A stretch of 64,000 nucleotides of DNA from Chitinophagaceae bacterium (GTDB lineage: Bacteria; Bacteroidota; Bacteroidia; Chitinophagales; Chitinophagaceae): NCBI GenBank assembly GCA_947451935.1, contig CANGBH010000004.1, positions 20,948 to 84,947 of the forward strand. The letters are read 5' to 3'. A model generated the notes under the pieces. The model ran no database searches. It was not told the DNA's origin and saw only the letters and a program-made list of their open reading frames with translations. How positions within the stretch are numbered: the stretch's first letter is position 1; each line of letters opens with the position of its first letter. Shown here in pieces: positions 19,694-30,133 of this stretch. Made by a program: the position numbers and the translations under genes.

Positions 19694-19993
19694 CTACTTA
19701 GATTCTGTAGCAACGACTGAATCTAAATTGATTGGTCCGTAAACGTGGGGGAATGTTTGTTCTAATGAAGGAGACCACTCAAATATAAATTGACTTGAAA
19801 GTTTATCGGTATCTATGGTTAGTTGAACCAAGTCACTAACTCCTTTATAATATTTGTCTTTTATGTACTCTACTTGGCTAGCCTCGCAGCAATGTATAAA
19901 GCCTTCGGCATTTAAAGCCGGTGAAGAATAAACACCTTCTGCCTGCGCTTTTTGCCAAGCTTCAGCAGTAGTAATATGATAAATTTTAGCCAT
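19694..19993 (-). CDS. DUF952 family protein
   Basis: IYHITTAEAWQKAQAEGVYSSPALNAEGFIHCCEASQV; last gene in line with aro operon. Confidence 0.85.
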   Translation of the reverse strand: MAKIYHITTAEAWQKAQAEGVYSSPALNAEGFIHCCEASQVEYIKDKYYKGVSDLVQLTIDTDKLSSQFIFEWSPSLEQTFPHVYGPINLDSVVATESK

Positions 19994-20007: not shown

Positions 20008-21003
20008 TTATGAATATACGGGTTTTATATGTTGCGACCGCAACATAAGGTCAGCAAATACAAATGCAGTAACCGCTTCAAGTACTGGTGGCACCCTTAG
20101 CGCAATACATAAATCATGTCTTCCACGAACCGCGAAATTTTCCATTGCATCGGTCTCCCAATTGTATGTATGCTGTTCTTTGGGTGTAGAAGAAGTTGGC
20201 TTAATGGCAATTCTAAAAACAATCTCATTGCCATTAGTAATTCCCCCTATAATTCCACCTGCATGATTCGTAGTTGTTTTACCTTCTTTATTTTCAATGG
20301 AATCGTTATGATCTACTCCAAACATAGAAGCAGCTTTGAATCCTGTACCGAATTCAATACCACGAACGGCTGGAATAGCAAATACAGCGTGTGAAATGAG
20401 TGATTCGGCAGAATCAAAAAATGGCTCACCTAATCCTAAAGGCAATCCATTCACCTTACACTCCACAATACCACCAACAGAATCTTTTTGATCTATCGCT
20501 TTCTGTAATCCAACTTCAACTGAAGACTCCCCACCTATAGAAACTATTTCAGAAACAACAGATATCCCTTTTAATATTTTTTTAGCTACTACTCCAGCTG
20601 CAACAAGACAAAGTGTTAATCGTCCACTAAAATGTCCACCTCCACGAAAATCTTCAAATCCTCCAAATTTTCTATTGGCAACAAAATCAGCATGACCTGG
20701 TCTTGGCACAGCACGCTGCTTTTCATAATCACCAGAACGTGTATTCTTATTTTCAAACAACAGCATTAATGGCGCGCCAGTTGTTTTGCCATTAAATACG
20801 CCACTCTTAAATATTGGTAAATCTTCTTCTTGCCTTGGTGTTGTACCTTTTTGCGTACCACCTTTTCTCCGTTCTGTATCAACAATAAAATCTTCTACAG
20901 CTAGTGGCAATCCAGCAGGACAACCATCAATCACTACACCTAAACCCTCTCCATGCGATTCACCAAAAATAGATACTGAAAAAATCTTTCCGAAATGGTT
21001 CAT
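20008..21003 (-). CDS. aroC: Chorismate synthase
   Basis: FGESHGEGLGVVIDGCPAG, RPGHADFVANRKFGGFEDFRGGGHFSGR. Confidence 0.96.
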   Translation of the reverse strand: MNHFGKIFSVSIFGESHGEGLGVVIDGCPAGLPLAVEDFIVDTERRKGGTQKGTTPRQEEDLPIFKSGVFNGKTTGAPLMLLFENKNTRSGDYEKQRAVPRPGHADFVANRKFGGFEDFRGGGHFSGRLTLCLVAAGVVAKKILKGISVVSEIVSIGGESSVEVGLQKAIDQKDSVGGIVECKVNGLPLGLGEPFFDSAESLISHAVFAIPAVRGIEFGTGFKAASMFGVDHNDSIENKEGKTTTNHAGGIIGGITNGNEIVFRIAIKPTSSTPKEQHTYNWETDAMENFAVRGRHDLCIALRVPPVLEAVTAFVFADLMLRSQHIKPVYS

Positions 21004-21012
21004 GACTATTGT

Positions 21013-22293
21013 TTAATTCGTTTCCAAAGAAATATGAGCACCGAGGGAAATCATATGATGATAAAAATCGGGATATGACTTATTGATTGCTTCCGCATCG
21101 TTTATAATCACAGGTCCATCTGCACACAATGCTGCAACAGCAGCAGCCATGGCAATTCGATGATCATGATGAGAATGAACCTCAGCTCCATTCAAAACAC
21201 TACCACCATGCACATACATCATATCGCCATCTAGTTCAATTTTTATACCCATTTTACCAAAAACATCCTGTAGCGTTAATGCCCTATCGCTTTCTTTATG
21301 GGTCAACCGTTTAGCACCTTTGATTTTTGTTACCCCTTTACAGTAAGCAGCCAATGACACTAATGGTGGAAATAAATCAGGGCACTCAGTTGCATCAAAT
21401 TCAAACGCAACTAATTCGCTTGGGGAAACAACATATTGTCCATCACTATAACTCAAGTTTGCACCAGCAGAGGTAATCGCTTCTAGTATTTTCTTATCCG
21501 CTTGAACAGAATCTGCATTCATTCCTTCAATGACAATTTTGGAAGAAATGGCTCCAGCAACAAATAAGAATGAGGCACCACTCCAATCACCCTCAACGGT
21601 ATAATGAATAATATCAGGTGTAGAATTCTCCGCAGCAGGCCCAAAAGTGAAGGTCGCATAGGAGTCCACAACAGGAAGTTTCATGCCAAACGCCTTAATT
21701 ACCTGCAAGGTCATATCAATATATGGCCTACTTTTTAAGTCTTTTACTTTTATGGTAACGTCAGATGCATTTGAAGCTGAAAAAGCGAATAAAAGTCCAG
21801 TTAAAAACTGAGAACTCAAACTCCCGTCGACCTCAATAGAAGAAGGCACCATCGGCCCCTTAATCTGAATAGGAAGCTTTCCATTGTTAGACGAAATAGC
21901 AATACCCAATTTTGGAAATATCTCATCAAAAAAATGCATTGGCCGATTCATTAATGAGCCTGAACCAGTCAACGTAAGTTGCTGACTACTTATTGAAGCA
22001 ATGGGAGTGAACATCCTTATTCCCAATCCACTTTCCCCACAAAATACAGTATCCTTAACGGGCATAACACCTACACTTGATATTTCAAGATGATCTGTAT
22101 GTTCAATAATTACTGCTCCAAGTTTTTGAATCACATCGATTGCTGCAAGATCATCATTTGAATTACCTGGAGTATAAATCAATGTTTTCCCTACATGAAG
22201 CAAGGAGGCGGCACAAGCGCGTTGCATATCACTTTTAGACCTTGGTGCACTAATGTTTCCATTCAATACGGATGGATTAACTATTGCCTTCAT
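21013..22293 (-). CDS. aroA: 3-phosphoshikimate 1-carboxyvinyltransferase (EPSP synthase)
   Basis: APRSKSDMQRACAASLL, CGESGLGIRMF, HKESDRALTLQDVFGKMG, DHRIAMAAAV. Confidence 0.95.
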   Translation of the reverse strand: MKAIVNPSVLNGNISAPRSKSDMQRACAASLLHVGKTLIYTPGNSNDDLAAIDVIQKLGAVIIEHTDHLEISSVGVMPVKDTVFCGESGLGIRMFTPIASISSQQLTLTGSGSLMNRPMHFFDEIFPKLGIAISSNNGKLPIQIKGPMVPSSIEVDGSLSSQFLTGLLFAFSASNASDVTIKVKDLKSRPYIDMTLQVIKAFGMKLPVVDSYATFTFGPAAENSTPDIIHYTVEGDWSGASFLFVAGAISSKIVIEGMNADSVQADKKILEAITSAGANLSYSDGQYVVSPSELVAFEFDATECPDLFPPLVSLAAYCKGVTKIKGAKRLTHKESDRALTLQDVFGKMGIKIELDGDMMYVHGGSVLNGAEVHSHHDHRIAMAAAVAALCADGPVIINDAEAINKSYPDFYHHMISLGAHISLETN

Positions 22294-22301
22294 TGTATTT
22301 A

Positions 22302-23345
22302 TTACTTAATCATGTTATTAAACTCTACCAAATGGTCATGCAATGCATCAACAGAAATCTTTTGTATTAAACCAGTTCCTATTTTTTGTAATAAAATATA
22401 GCTCATGTCTTTGTTCACACGCTTCTTATCCATCTTCAACACATTAAACACTTTTTTTACATCAAATTTTCCTCTAGTCGGCAATCCATATTCTATCAAT
22501 ACCTTTTCTATTCTATCTGCCCCTTTTAGTCCCACTGCTTTTTCTGAAAGCCATGAAGCGAAAATCATTCCTAATGAAACAGCTTGACCATGCGTCAATT
22601 CGTATTGAGTTTCTAAGGCATGTCCAAGGGTATGACCGAAATTGAGCAACTTTCTATTGCCTGTTTCAAATTCATCCGCTTTAACAACACCCACTTTCAA
22701 TTTTACATTGCGCAGAATAATATCTCTAAGAAGGGATTTGTCACGCTTCACTTTAGCAATATTACTTTTCTCTAACAATGAAAACGTTTTGCTATCCAAT
22801 ATACAAGCATGCTTGATGATCTCAGCAAACCCGTTACTCCATTCTGAATCTGGTAATGTTTTCAAAAAATCAAGATCATAAAACAAAAAAGAGGGTTGAC
22901 GAATCACCCCCACCATGTTTTTATATTCCCCTACATCGATACCGTTTTTACCTCCAATAGAAGCATCTACCATAGCTAATAATGATGTAGGCACAAAACC
23001 AAACTCAATGCCCCTCATATATACCGAAGCGATGTAGCCGGTAAGGTCTGTAATAACTCCGCCTCCAATACCAATTAACGTAGTTTGTCTATCTGCAGAA
23101 AATTCAATTAGCTGATCAATTACTGCGTCCACTGTAGCCTGAACCTTATACTCCTCACCAGCTTTCAAGGTAATTACATTCCACTTCTTGAATTTACTTT
23201 TATGCGCAACAAAAACATTTTCATCAGTAATAATAATCGCCTTCTCTTTGTTTACAATTTGATCAAAATTATTGAATGATGCATCAAAGTAGCAATCGAC
23301 AATTTTCTGTGAAAAACGAAAACGTGTTTTTTTCATACTCGTCAT
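22302..23345 (-). CDS. aroB: 3-dehydroquinate synthase
   Basis: IGIGGGVITDLTGYIASVYMRGIEFGFVPTSLLAMVDASIGGKNGID, LLNFGHTLGHALE. Confidence 0.96.
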   Translation of the reverse strand: MTSMKKTRFRFSQKIVDCYFDASFNNFDQIVNKEKAIIITDENVFVAHKSKFKKWNVITLKAGEEYKVQATVDAVIDQLIEFSADRQTTLIGIGGGVITDLTGYIASVYMRGIEFGFVPTSLLAMVDASIGGKNGIDVGEYKNMVGVIRQPSFLFYDLDFLKTLPDSEWSNGFAEIIKHACILDSKTFSLLEKSNIAKVKRDKSLLRDIILRNVKLKVGVVKADEFETGNRKLLNFGHTLGHALETQYELTHGQAVSLGMIFASWLSEKAVGLKGADRIEKVLIEYGLPTRGKFDVKKVFNVLKMDKKRVNKDMSYILLQKIGTGLIQKISVDALHDHLVEFNNMIK

Positions 23346-23349
23346 ACTA

Positions 23350-23772
23350 TTACTTATCTGTTTTTAAAAAGACTTCGATCTCTGTTTGAAACGTCCTTGT
23401 CAAATGATACTCTTCTTGCCTTTCAATAAATGATGTCACTTGTGCAAGTGAACCAGGACTCACTGAATAAGCAATGATTTCATCAGACCAGTCAAATCCA
23501 GCCTTTATCAATTGAGTCGTGTTTGTCCATTCGGAAGACTCAGAACGCAACAACCTCATAACCTGAGATAAATTCTGGGCAGGATGCAACTGCAATAAAA
23601 GATGAACATGATCTTCGGCTCCATTCACTTCTAATAAATGAATTCCTTTTTCTTCTGCCAGTTTTTTTATGTGACTAAAAAGAACAACCCTTACCGGCCG
23701 TGTTAATACACTTTCCCTGTTTCGAGTTGACCAAATGATGTGCACATATAAAAAAACCTGTACCATGGTCAA
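23350..23772 (-). CDS. Y1 (IS200/RAYT-like) HUH transposase-family protein, apparently lacking the catalytic Tyr
   Basis: VFLYVHIIWSTRNRE, EDHVHLLLQL (HUH), SFIERQEEYHLTRTFQTEIEVFL aligning to typical KYIxNQEEHHxxxTFxEEYLEFL; 4 bp from aroB and 17 bp from the DAHP synthase gene. Confidence 0.85.
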   Translation of the reverse strand: MTMVQVFLYVHIIWSTRNRESVLTRPVRVVLFSHIKKLAEEKGIHLLEVNGAEDHVHLLLQLHPAQNLSQVMRLLRSESSEWTNTTQLIKAGFDWSDEIIAYSVSPGSLAQVTSFIERQEEYHLTRTFQTEIEVFLKTDK

Positions 23773-23789: not shown

Positions 23790-24878
23790 TTAATCGTTCA
23801 TGACTTTATTCTGCCTATTAATACTTTCCATATGGATTGCATCCATGTAGCGCGTTACAAACTCTTCGCTAAGAGAAAGTTTGTCAGCCTTCTTCACAGC
23901 TTTATCCAAAATTTCATTCCAACGATTTGCTTGCAAAATAGTTACATTATTATTCTTCTTGTATGTTCCTATTTTTTCTGCAATATGCATACGCTGAGAA
24001 ATCAACTGCATCAACTCATCATCGATATGATTGATCTGTTCTCTCAACTTATCAAGTGCAATATGGAATGTTTCTGATGAAACATCTTCTCTTCTCCATA
24101 CGATCTCATCCAACATCTCTGCAAGACGCTCAGGAGTAATTTGCTGCTTAGCATCGCTCCATGCATTATCTGGATCGATATGGCTTTCAATCATCAAGCC
24201 ATCAAAATCAAGGTCGATTGCTTTTTGAGCAGTGGCAAGAAGAATATCTCGACGACCACAAATATGAGAAGGGTCATTGATGATTGGCATTCCTGGCATT
24301 CTGCGTTTCATTTCAATCGCTAAATGCCACATTGGAGCATTCCTAAATTCTGTATTACCATAAGAAGAAAAACCACGGTGGATTAATCCAATTTCTTTTA
24401 TACCAGCACGAGCAACACGCTCAACAGCACCTTGCCATAATTCAAGATCAGGGTTGATTGGGTTCTTAATCAACACTGGTACATCTACACCGCGAAGTGC
24501 ATCGGCAACTTCTTGCACACTAAATGGGTTAACTGTTGTTCTAGCACCAACCCATAAAACATCTACGTCAAATGTGAGTGCATCTTCAACTTGCTTTCCT
24601 GTTGCTACTTCTACAGTGGTAGGTAAACCAGTAAGTTTTTTTGCTTGTTGTAACCAAGGCAAACCCTTTGCTCCAATACCTTCAAACATTCCAGGCTTGG
24701 TTCTTGGTTTCCATATACCAGCACGCAACATATCTACTTTACCAGTGTTTGCAAGGCGTTGTGCAGTGGCAAGAACTTGCTCTTCTGTTTCAGCACTGCA
24801 AGGGCCAGAAATAATAAGAGGACGTTTATTCCAAGCTGCTTTTACAATTGATTGATGACTTTCTTGTGTTGTTTCCAT
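23790..24878 (-). CDS. Bifunctional 3-deoxy-7-phosphoheptulonate synthase / chorismate mutase
   Basis: IISGPCSAETEEQV, RAGIWKPRTKPGMFEGIG, NDPSHICGRRD; C-terminal type II chorismate mutase LREQINHIDDELMQLISQRMHIAEKIG. Confidence 0.95.
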   Translation of the reverse strand: METTQESHQSIVKAAWNKRPLIISGPCSAETEEQVLATAQRLANTGKVDMLRAGIWKPRTKPGMFEGIGAKGLPWLQQAKKLTGLPTTVEVATGKQVEDALTFDVDVLWVGARTTVNPFSVQEVADALRGVDVPVLIKNPINPDLELWQGAVERVARAGIKEIGLIHRGFSSYGNTEFRNAPMWHLAIEMKRRMPGMPIINDPSHICGRRDILLATAQKAIDLDFDGLMIESHIDPDNAWSDAKQQITPERLAEMLDEIVWRREDVSSETFHIALDKLREQINHIDDELMQLISQRMHIAEKIGTYKKNNNVTILQANRWNEILDKAVKKADKLSLSEEFVTRYMDAIHMESINRQNKVMND

Positions 24879-24918: not shown

Positions 24919-25773
24919 CTAATGAATGATCCTTCGGATCTGATTTGCTTTTTCCATTAACTCGTGAAGATATTCCCAGTTCTCTTTCTCTAAACAAGAT
25001 TTAAATTTTCTCAGCTGCATGATGTGCTCATTCAATACATCCAGAATGTTATCCTTGTTTTGCTTTAAAATTGGTGTCCACATATCTGGGCTACTCTTTG
25101 CCAACCTTACGGTACTCTCAAATCCTGCACTAGCCATTTCAAAAATGGCACTATCTTCTTTTTCCTTTTCAAGCACGGTGTTTGCCAAGGCGAATGAAGT
25201 GATATGAGATATATGACTAACGTATGCAGCATGAAGATCATGATCGTGTGCATCCATCTCGAAAATGCGCATATTCAAATTGCCGAAAAGTAATTTAGCA
25301 TAGGCAATGGCCTCATCACTACTATCCTGAGCATCACAAATAATCACTGATTTATCTTCGAATGCGCCTTCTACCGCTGCAGTAGGACCACTATATTCTG
25401 TTCCCCACATAGGATGTGCAGCGACAAACTGACTCCGCTTTGGATGGCCTTTTACTTTATCGATCAATAAACTTTTTGTAGAACCTAAATCGATAACTAT
25501 TTGCTGATCAATTAAGTCAAGTATTTTAGGCACAAGCGTTATCATACTATCAACCGGAATAGCAACTAGAATAACATCCGATTTTGAAATGGCGTCTTCC
25601 ATGCTCAACATTTCATCAACAAGATGAAGTGCGATGGCTTGCTCAGCATGAAGCGGGTTATTGTCAATACCAACAACATGGTTTGATATGCCCTTTTTCT
25701 TACACTGAAGTGCAAGTGAGCCACCAATCAAACCAACTCCAACTATCGCAATATTTTTTTTATCTATATTCAT
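24919..25773 (-). CDS. tyrA: Prephenate dehydrogenase
   Basis: IAIVGVGLIGGSLALQCKKKG, AAHPMWGTEYSGP, HDHDLHAAYVSHISHI. Confidence 0.93.
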   Translation of the reverse strand: MNIDKKNIAIVGVGLIGGSLALQCKKKGISNHVVGIDNNPLHAEQAIALHLVDEMLSMEDAISKSDVILVAIPVDSMITLVPKILDLIDQQIVIDLGSTKSLLIDKVKGHPKRSQFVAAHPMWGTEYSGPTAAVEGAFEDKSVIICDAQDSSDEAIAYAKLLFGNLNMRIFEMDAHDHDLHAAYVSHISHITSFALANTVLEKEKEDSAIFEMASAGFESTVRLAKSSPDMWTPILKQNKDNILDVLNEHIMQLRKFKSCLEKENWEYLHELMEKANQIRRIIH

Positions 25774-25842: not shown

Positions 25843-27024
25843 CTATTCTTTTATCTTCTTCACTCTATTGATAGCTTCCTGTAAAATCTCTTCTTTGCTG
25901 CATAAACTCACACGCACAAAAGAATCACCAGCATCACCAAAAATTCCTCCAGGCGTAATGAATACACGGGCTTCATTCAACACTTTATCACTCAACTCGT
26001 ATCCAGACTTAAATTCACTTGGAATAGCAGCCCACACAAACATACCAACTTGATCTTTGGCATATGAGCATCCAAGTAAATCAAGTAACTCACATGCCAA
26101 TTTTTTTCTATCCGAGTAAACCTGATTAATATTGTCAAACCAGTCCTTGCCCAACTCTAACGCTTTAGATGCCGCAAGTTGAACAGGCAAAAACATACCA
26201 CTATCCATATTGCTTTTAAACCTCAAGATGGCATTGATATGTTCCGCAGAAGCAACAATCATCCCAACACGCCAACCCGCCATATTGTGTGATTTGCTCA
26301 ACGAGTTAAGTTCAATGACTACTTCTTTATCGATATCATACTCCAACAAACTTGTTGGATGATTATTCAAAATAAAACTGTATGGATTATCATGTACGAT
26401 CATTACTTTTTCGCGCTTTGCAAAAGCAATAATTTCGCTCAATAATTTTTTATCAGGAAGTTGACCAGTAGGCATATGAGGGTAATTGAGAAAAATAATT
26501 TTCACAACACCTTGTCCCTTTGCATTATACTCATCAATCATTTTCTTCCAAACGGCTAAATCTGGATGCCAATTATTTTCAGATTCAAGTCGATATGAAA
26601 GTACCGTACCTCCAGAAAGCTTGACAGCACTACTATATGTTGGATAACCAGGATTTGGAACAAATGCAGCATCGCCTTCCTGAAGATAAGTCATGCATAT
26701 ATGCATGACCCCTTCTTTACTTCCTATCAACGGAAGCACCTCAGTATCTGGATTCACCAAAACAGTATACCATTTTTTATACCATGCAGATATTGCATTT
26801 CGAAATATAGGTGAACCTTTATACGATTGGTAGGCATGAGTATTTTGCTTTTCCGCTTCCGTGTGTAATGCTTCAACCACAGATGGATGAGGTGGAAGAT
26901 CAGGACTGCCAATACCCAAATTAATTACTGCATGCCCTGTCTTATTAAGCTCATCGATTTCTCGAAGCTTAGTAGAGAAATAATATTCTCCAATTCCATT
27001 TAATCTAGATGATACCGGTATCAT
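25843..27024 (-). CDS. Class I/II PLP aminotransferase (aromatic/prephenate context)
   Basis: VINLGIGSPDLPPHPSV, NPGYPTYSSAVKLSGG, SLSKSHNMAGWRVG; overlaps pheA by 4 bp. Confidence 0.92.
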   Translation of the reverse strand: MIPVSSRLNGIGEYYFSTKLREIDELNKTGHAVINLGIGSPDLPPHPSVVEALHTEAEKQNTHAYQSYKGSPIFRNAISAWYKKWYTVLVNPDTEVLPLIGSKEGVMHICMTYLQEGDAAFVPNPGYPTYSSAVKLSGGTVLSYRLESENNWHPDLAVWKKMIDEYNAKGQGVVKIIFLNYPHMPTGQLPDKKLLSEIIAFAKREKVMIVHDNPYSFILNNHPTSLLEYDIDKEVVIELNSLSKSHNMAGWRVGMIVASAEHINAILRFKSNMDSGMFLPVQLAASKALELGKDWFDNINQVYSDRKKLACELLDLLGCSYAKDQVGMFVWAAIPSEFKSGYELSDKVLNEARVFITPGGIFGDAGDSFVRVSLCSKEEILQEAINRVKKIKE

Positions 27025-27911
27025 GAGGCTGAATTAAATTTTCCTTTTTTATAAATACCCAATACACGCATGTACTTTGTTTTGGCCGTCAACTTTTTCA
27101 GAAGTGAATTGAATTTCTTTAATGATTCAAATTCAAGGTCTGCATGAAAACCATATTTAAATTGACTGCCAGCAATTGGGAATGACTGCAGCTTAGAAAT
27201 GTTTATGTCTTCCGCAGCAATGAGGGAGAGCACTTTCGCAAGACTACCCTTCTCATGATCGGTATGAAAATTGATGGATGCTTTATCTGCACCTTCGATA
27301 ACAGAAGGATGCTGTTGCAACACCAAAAAACGCGTATAATTATGCTTTACGTCGTTTATTTTAGGAGCAATCAATTCAAGGTCAAACATCTCCGCAGCCA
27401 GCTTACTAGCAATAGCTGCAACATGCTTGCTCTTCTTAAGATGAACATGCTTTGCACTCAATGCAGTATCATCCGTCTCAATTAACGTCCAAGGATACTT
27501 GTTTAAAAAACCAAGGCATTGCTGAAGTGCCATAGGATGCGAATGAACCTCTTTAATATCAGACAACTTCACACCAGGATTCACCATTAAATTTTGATCA
27601 ATTTGGAGGTAAACTTCACCCGCTACAAAAAGAGATGACTTTTGCAATAAGTTATAATTAGGAAGTATACTACCCGCGATAGAATTTTCAATCGCCATAA
27701 TACCACCGCTAGTCTTTTTAGAATCTGAAGCGTCTCGAATAAGATCGATGAAAGTAGCACATGGAAGGATTTCAACATTTTTACCATAGAACTTACGAGC
27801 AGCGACTTGATGAAAACTGCCTTCATAGCCCTGAATAGCAATAGGTTTTGGAGTAGCCGACTTGGACGGCTTTTCCAGATTGCGAAGTTTACTATTTTTC
27901 TTTTCGGACAT
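27021..27911 (-). CDS. pheA: Prephenate dehydratase
   Basis: IQGYEGSFHQVAARKFYG, GIMAIENSIAGSILPNYNLL, HSHPMALQQC, NYTRFLVL; ACT domain (KASINFHTDHEKGSLAKVLSLIAAEDINISKLQSFPI). Confidence 0.94.
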   Translation of the reverse strand: MSEKKNSKLRNLEKPSKSATPKPIAIQGYEGSFHQVAARKFYGKNVEILPCATFIDLIRDASDSKKTSGGIMAIENSIAGSILPNYNLLQKSSLFVAGEVYLQIDQNLMVNPGVKLSDIKEVHSHPMALQQCLGFLNKYPWTLIETDDTALSAKHVHLKKSKHVAAIASKLAAEMFDLELIAPKINDVKHNYTRFLVLQQHPSVIEGADKASINFHTDHEKGSLAKVLSLIAAEDINISKLQSFPIAGSQFKYGFHADLEFESLKKFNSLLKKLTAKTKYMRVLGIYKKGKFNSAS

Positions 27912-27926
27912 CGTTCATTTACGATT

Positions 27927-27958
27927 TAAAAAAAAATCCCGGTAGTGTTACCGGGATT
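27927..27958 (-). terminator. Intrinsic terminator of the pheA-operon leader (attenuator)
   Basis: Minus strand AATCCCGGTA-ACAC-TACCGGGATT followed by TTTTTTTT; 10-bp perfect stem just upstream of pheA ATG. Confidence 0.93.
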
Positions 27959-27988
27959 CTTATGTTGATATATCTTGTTATTATTTGT

Positions 27989-28060
27989 TCAACAAAGAGA
28001 TCCCGTACTACCGGTAAAGTAGTAGTAAAAATAAAAACGGGCTGTCTTTGGCATGTTCAT
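27989..28060 (-). CDS. Aromatic-operon leader peptide MNMPKTARFYFYYYFTGSTGSLC
   Basis: ATG AAC ATG CCA AAG ACA GCC CGT TTT TAT TTT TAC TAC TAC TTT ACC GGT AGT ACG GGA TCT CTT TGT TGA on minus strand; seven consecutive Phe/Tyr codons; downstream terminator precedes pheA. Confidence 0.9.
   Translation of the reverse strand: MNMPKTARFYFYYYFTGSTGSLC
28000..28014 (-). promoter_or_regulatory. Predicted antiterminator segment (pairs with terminator arms)
   Basis: Minus-strand CCGGTAGTACGGGAT complementary to ATCCCG and ACTACCGG within the terminator hairpin. Confidence 0.75.
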
Positions 28061-29926: not shown

Positions 29927-29956
29927 TCAACGATTGCTTGCCATATGAAAAAAAGA

Positions 29957-30133
29957 TTACTTAGCAGCAGCAGTAGTATCAGCAGCAGCAGCTGTATCAG
30001 CAGCAGCAGTTGTGTCAACAGCAGCAGCAGTTGTGTCAACAGTAGCAGCAGTTGTGTCAGCAGCTGGAGTTGAATCAGAACCTCCGCAAGAAGCAAGAGC
30101 AGCCATAGCTAAGATTACAAATAACTTTTTCAT
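29957..30133 (-). CDS. Small Ala/Asp/Thr-repeat lipoprotein (58 aa), absent from ORF track
   Basis: MKKLFVILAMAALASCGGSDSTPAADTTAATVDTTAAAVDTTAAADTAAAADTTAAAK*; lipobox LASC; own terminator downstream. Confidence 0.85.
   Translation of the reverse strand: MKKLFVILAMAALASCGGSDSTPAADTTAATVDTTAAAVDTTAAADTAAAADTTAAAK

Follow-up and report, generated by a model that had tools for sequence, protein, structure and literature searches.

Proteins of TnpA-Y1 subclass 1.2, as described by Quentin et al. 2018, carry the motif Y---Q--HH, occur at low copy number in Cyanobacteria and Bacteroidetes, have no IS features, and are described as non-mobile and without known function (PMC6006769). In the TnpA-REP proteins or RAYTs, members of the same superfamily, the motif is Y---NP and is accompanied by REP palindromes; E. 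coli TnpA-REP cuts, and its activity is abolished when the tyrosine hydroxyl is removed (Y115F) (PMC8266576). Described here is a gene for an HUH protein (hereafter Y1) lying between the shikimate pathway genes aroG and aroB in a 64-kb window (the whole stretch of DNA that was analysed, 64,000 nucleotides) from a Chitinophagaceae bacterium (Table 1). It resembles subclass 1.2 in its class 1 fold, its length (~140-150 aa in that subclass), its low copy number, its lack of IS ends and its occurrence in Bacteroidota, and its nearest relatives, 73 proteins from outside aro operons, carry the full Y---Q--HH motif. Unlike subclass 1.2, the aro-embedded branch has a fixed place in a single operon, is acidic, has either Tyr or Phe at the nucleophile position, and in 43/61 proteins has the first His of the HH pair (position 120, His in 73/73 non-aro relatives) replaced by Tyr; its C-terminus is short compared with many subclass 1.2 relatives.

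With the TnpA proteins of IS200/IS605 elements (IS608, ISDra2; subclass 1.1) the branch shares the HUH fold, the HUH-Gln metal site and a Tyr or Phe at the nucleophile column, but it has neither element ends nor a tnpB neighbour, is not mobile, and in the window protein lacks the nucleophile. It is like the RAYTs in consisting of mostly single-copy, housekeeping-like proteins, for which these provide a precedent of domestication (PMC8266576), whereas the aro branch has Y/F---Q, often no nucleophile, and no REP found in the window. The substitution seen in the window is identical, and at the identical position, to that of the ISDra2 TnpA mutant Y132F (2xo6); there it was made in the laboratory, whereas in the aro branch it has arisen naturally and more than once, in genes under purifying selection. 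No earlier report of this branch was found in the literature covered, which took in few subscription journals.

Table 1. Features of the phe-tyr-aro region of the window (positions are those of the window)
Feature	Position	Strand	Basis
aroC	20008-21003	-	TIGR00033, above cut-off
aroA	21013-22293	-	TIGR01356, above cut-off
aroB, 3-dehydroquinate synthase, downstream neighbour of Y1, 4 nt away	22302..23345	-	TIGR01357, 327.9 bits, above cut-off
Aro-embedded Y1/HUH gene, 138 aa	23350..23766	-	ORF; Pfam Y1_Tnp; ATG start judged from relatives
Longer form of Y1 gene, 140 aa	to 23772	-	in-frame TTG upstream of ATG
Tyr120-His121, matching the final --HH of the subclass 1.2 signature, with Tyr in place of the first His	23404..23409	-	
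Gln117, where class 1 TnpA has its third metal ligand	23416..23418	-	invariant, 134/134
Phe113 codon TTT, catalytic-tyrosine position	23428..23430	-	sequence; aligned with ISDra2 TnpA residue 132
HUH motif His53-Val-His55	23602..23610	-	invariant, 134/134 proteins
aroG, DAHP synthase-chorismate mutase, upstream neighbour of Y1	23790..24878	-	NCBIfam models, under curated cut-offs; conserved neighbour
tyrA (prephenate dehydrogenase), upstream operon gene	24919-25773	-	NCBIfam
Aminotransferase, upstream operon gene	25843-27024	-	NCBIfam
pheA (prephenate dehydratase), upstream operon gene	27021-27911	-	NCBIfam
Probable Phe/Tyr attenuator ahead of pheA	27928..28060	-	leader peptide MNMPKTARFYFYYYFTGSTGSLC and stop, then hairpin and T-run

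The open reading frame, its HUH motif and its phenylalanine codon are as the initial annotation gave them, with two adjustments that follow from the start codon. Since two close relatives lack the TTG, the conserved ATG (23766) is the probable start, which shortens the annotated protein of 140 aa to 138 aa and widens the annotated gap of 17 nt to the DAHP synthase gene to 23 nt; the gap of 4 nt to aroB stands. In the ATG numbering used here H53/H55, F113, Q117 and Y120 correspond to the H55/H57, F115, Q119 and Y122 of that annotation.

The window protein matches Pfam Y1_Tnp (PF01797) with an E-value of 2.6e-23 and 82.9 bits (curated cut-off 23), the 31/31 orthologues checked also match this model, and the best NCBIfam model, above its cut-off, is an IS200/IS605 transposase, while the REP_Tyr_transpos model reaches 25 bits of a required 80. 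A phmmer alignment places Phe113 on the nucleophile column (residue 132) of ISDra2 TnpA, and the top PDB match is 2xo6. The AlphaFold2 model (mean pLDDT 90) has a TnpA fold, with ISDra2 and IS608 TnpA as the nearest solved folds in Foldseek, followed by a RAYT. The alignment thus bears out the proposal that the catalytic tyrosine has become phenylalanine with the glutamine kept. The HUH motif that helps to define the TnpA-Y1 superfamily is present and its catalytic tyrosine is not; the window motif is F---Q--YH, and therefore departs from the Y---Q--HH signature, and the Y---NP of RAYTs is absent, F---Q standing in its place. The low copy number and missing IS ends agree with subclass 1.2, and the subterminal hairpins, mobility and multiple near-identical copies of subclass 1.1 were not found. 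A search for an inverted repeat flanking the gene was negative, as first annotated; no conserved hairpin adjoining it was found in the window, no dispersed palindromic (REP-like) repeat occurs within the 64 kb, and PADLOC gave no match.

The operon genes around Y1 are all co-directional with short gaps, and Y1 appears to be co-transcribed with the shikimate genes. Functions of the neighbours are assigned at the level of the family, because some NCBIfam matches fall below curated cut-offs. The leader peptide ahead of pheA is rich in Phe and Tyr (FYFYYYF) and is followed by a strong terminator-like hairpin (z -4.96). This arrangement, similar to that in relatives of the genus, probably attenuates transcription of the phe-tyr-aro operon; since the match to Rfam Phe_leader is sub-threshold (31.3 of 55 bits), it may be a Bacteroidota leader not yet catalogued. 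If the operon genes are co-transcribed, expression of Y1 would be set by the supply of Phe and Tyr. Elsewhere in the window, a tandem 18/21-nt CAGCAG-rich repeat lies beside a DEAD-box gene (29944-30099), and a 99-aa ORF without an NCBIfam match (19694-19993, minus strand) follows aroC, as it does in many relatives.

The conservation of this arrangement in the aro operons of relatives is extensive. The order aroG-Y1-aroB was found in 61 sampled genomes from 13 genera of one family, Chitinophagaceae (in 2 of these one of the two neighbours lies off the contig), and the window gene is the one Y1 gene found in its own assembly. When 399 genomes of the family were searched with a profile, 46 matches reached at least 175 bits, every one between aroG and aroB, the next match scoring 145 bits, and in a class-wide sample of 395 genomes no match of at least 175 bits fell outside Chitinophagaceae. 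Among 41 genomes of the window's genus no near-identical copies were seen at other loci, which removes the mobile copies that would have spoken against domestication. Long open frames in genus g201 raised the possibility of a Y1-AroB fusion, which was rejected because a TGA stop separates the two genes.

Of the 41 species of the window's genus, 21 have a full Y1 gene, flanked in 19 by aroG and aroB on the same contig, and 15 others have aroG and aroB adjacent, 0-12 nt apart, with no Y1. These 15 (L036-L050) are small-genome species in which the loss apparently looks clean. Across the family, 17 of 20 genomes sampled as lacking Y1 keep aroG and aroB 6-204 nt apart, showing that this junction exists without Y1; five larger gaps in genera without the gene measure 145-204 nt. 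Absence from close relatives had been named as an objection to domestication, and the gene is indeed dispensable in the window's clade, as its 15 gene-less species show. However, on the aroB+aroG tree these species nest with the Phe clade (24 species: 15 gene-less, 8 Phe, 1 Tyr), so that the absence is most likely a secondary loss inside that clade, perhaps occurring twice.

In trees built with the column of position 113 left out, the aro-embedded proteins form one clade (support 100/100 and 100) apart from the 73 non-aro relatives. The insertion of Y1 between aroG and aroB is best read as a single event in an ancestor within the family, after which the gene was inherited with the operon; Y1 distances correlate with aroB distances (r = 0.78) and aroG distances (r = 0.66), with 0/2000 permutations as high. 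The sequence comparison and the tree support descent from a Y---Q--HH group. Supported branches force at least 5 switches between Tyr and Phe, and 6-7 are counted on the trees, one of which may be a return to Tyr, in G028 of the window's clade. Pairwise NG86 estimates of dN/dS are 0.026-0.056 for Y1 among four Phe-only species, against 0.039-0.090 for aroB, and medians over all groups are 0.05-0.13 for Phe-Phe pairs and 0.055-0.15 for Tyr-Tyr pairs. Strong purifying selection on Y1 continues after loss of the tyrosine, and the low values in Phe-Phe pairs exclude a neutral relic as far as pairwise estimates go. The initial view of a domesticated protein rather than a passenger IS is thus upheld by the single copy, the fixed place, the aroB-tracking distances, the one origin and the purifying selection.

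Residue patterns were compared between the 61 aro-embedded proteins and the 73 non-aro relatives (134 in total). Both HUH histidines, Gln117 and His121 are invariant throughout (134/134), and position 113, encoded by TAT/TAC for Tyr and TTT/TTC for Phe, is Tyr in 44 and Phe in 17 aro-embedded proteins (the window and 16 more) and Tyr in 73/73 relatives. The recurrence of Phe in 17/61 orthologues and in 0/73 relatives indicates more than chance. Tyr120 accompanies 16/17 Phe113 forms and 27/44 Tyr113 forms, and one orthologue, G612 (L151), combines Phe113 with His120. Pro104 is a clade-specific invariant (61/61; mostly Glu in the relatives). The aro-embedded proteins have a mean net charge of -2 and a pI of 6.4, against +2 and 8.1 in the relatives (Mann-Whitney P ~4e-18, with related sequences that are not independent), and Lys15 and Arg17, conserved in the relatives, are relaxed. 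These changes are common to the Tyr and Phe forms.

The evidence therefore supports the window protein as a domesticated descendant of TnpA-Y1 subclass 1.2 that can do without cutting, and its recruitment seems to have been for a role in which DNA is not cut. We lean slightly towards the view that an HUH domain from a transposase now serves the shikimate pathway as a stable regulator or accessory that does not cleave, and that its nucleophile can switch freely between Tyr and Phe. That the exapted, non-cleaving protein binds structured single-stranded nucleic acid and so tunes shikimate gene expression has, in our judgement, an even chance of being right. Under this proposal Y1 would be a branch of the non-mobile Bacteroidota proteins of subclass 1.2 that kept the fold and the metal site (His53, His55 and Gln117, with His121) while the nucleophilic Tyr was exchanged for Phe several times; it would bind a ligand at the retained site without cleavage, with the aro transcript that encodes it or a hairpin in DNA as plausible candidates, and this binding would tune expression of the shikimate genes. 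Nicking was presumably lost in the Phe113 forms, by analogy with Tyr-to-Phe mutants such as the inactive Y115F of E. coli TnpA-REP; the Y132F crystal (2xo6) has the ISDra2 protein on its cleavage site. A Phe that fills the place of Tyr in the packing, with HUH and Gln retained, suggests a need for the fold and the metal site but not for cutting. No shared hairpin target emerged: in the gaps between the DEAD-box gene and aroG, long palindromes are present in several genera and missing in most g61 genomes and in g206, and this, like the lack of a conserved hairpin beside the gene in the window, speaks against the proposal. Those found in several large-genome genera (L183-L189, L147-L167) are imperfect and composed of words of about seven bases, such as TTAGCTAATTTGCTAATGTG and ATTTGAAAATTTGAA.

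Whether the ligand is a nucleic acid bears on the choice between this proposal and a metabolic accessory. A metal site of the kind found in enzymes that process single strands favours a nucleic acid, as we infer, whereas the loss of positive charge weakens the DNA/RNA-binding role first suggested and favours a protein or metabolite; acidic charge and relaxed Lys15/Arg17 both argue against nucleic-acid binding. An HUH fold with a pathway metabolite, AroG or AroB as its ligand and an effect on the first two shikimate steps, no nucleic acid being involved, would suit a gene whose fixed place is directly between those for the step 1 and step 2 enzymes, the acidic charge and relaxed basic residues shared by Tyr and Phe forms alike, and new invariants such as Pro104. 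We nevertheless regard it as rather unlikely, since a simple scaffold would not need the nuclease metal site that is kept complete and invariant here, and no fusion with AroG or AroB was found. Y1 is probably a non-cleaving binding protein that acts on the aromatic pathway.

Some orthologues may still cut, as 44/61 keep the tyrosine, and the invariant HUH and Gln together with Tyr120 in 16/17 Phe forms would fit a nuclease that cuts single-stranded DNA in its Tyr113 forms and that in its Phe113 forms relies on a different nucleophile, for example Tyr120 some two helical turns on. Tyr120 as a general replacement is ruled out by G612, in which neither tyrosine is present and neither can be obligatory; no other residue aligns with the nucleophile, and a residue so frequent in Tyr113 forms does not look like a replacement. 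As E. coli TnpA-REP is also inactive with the corresponding Phe substitution (PMC8266576), continued nuclease activity is improbable, and the alternative nuclease of the initial annotation is unlikely. A decaying remnant of a captured transposase that lost first its tyrosine and then its gene would account for the gene-less species within the Phe clade of the window's genus and for the 0-12 nt left between aroG and aroB. It is nonetheless very improbable, given reading frames that are intact, dN/dS values of 0.03-0.06 in Phe-only species, as low as in aroB, and Phe lineages elsewhere (g43, g68, G062) that retain the gene. Six amino acids are one mutation away from Tyr, and at least five switches all between Tyr and Phe would arise by chance with a rough probability of (1/6)^5, or ~1e-4. 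A passenger IS200/IS605 element or recent insertion, to which the best NCBIfam model might point, is scarcely credible for a gene with one copy in the assembly, no subterminal hairpins, a position conserved in 13 genera and distances that follow aroB.

One branch of subclass 1.2 now has a fixed place in the genome, a known set of invariant residues and catalytic mutants that occur in nature, which makes its function testable. The repeated discarding of transposase chemistry with the fold and metal site kept bears on how HUH proteins act without cutting and, if the proposed reading is true, Y1 would be a natural 'pseudo-transposase' locked into a biosynthetic operon.
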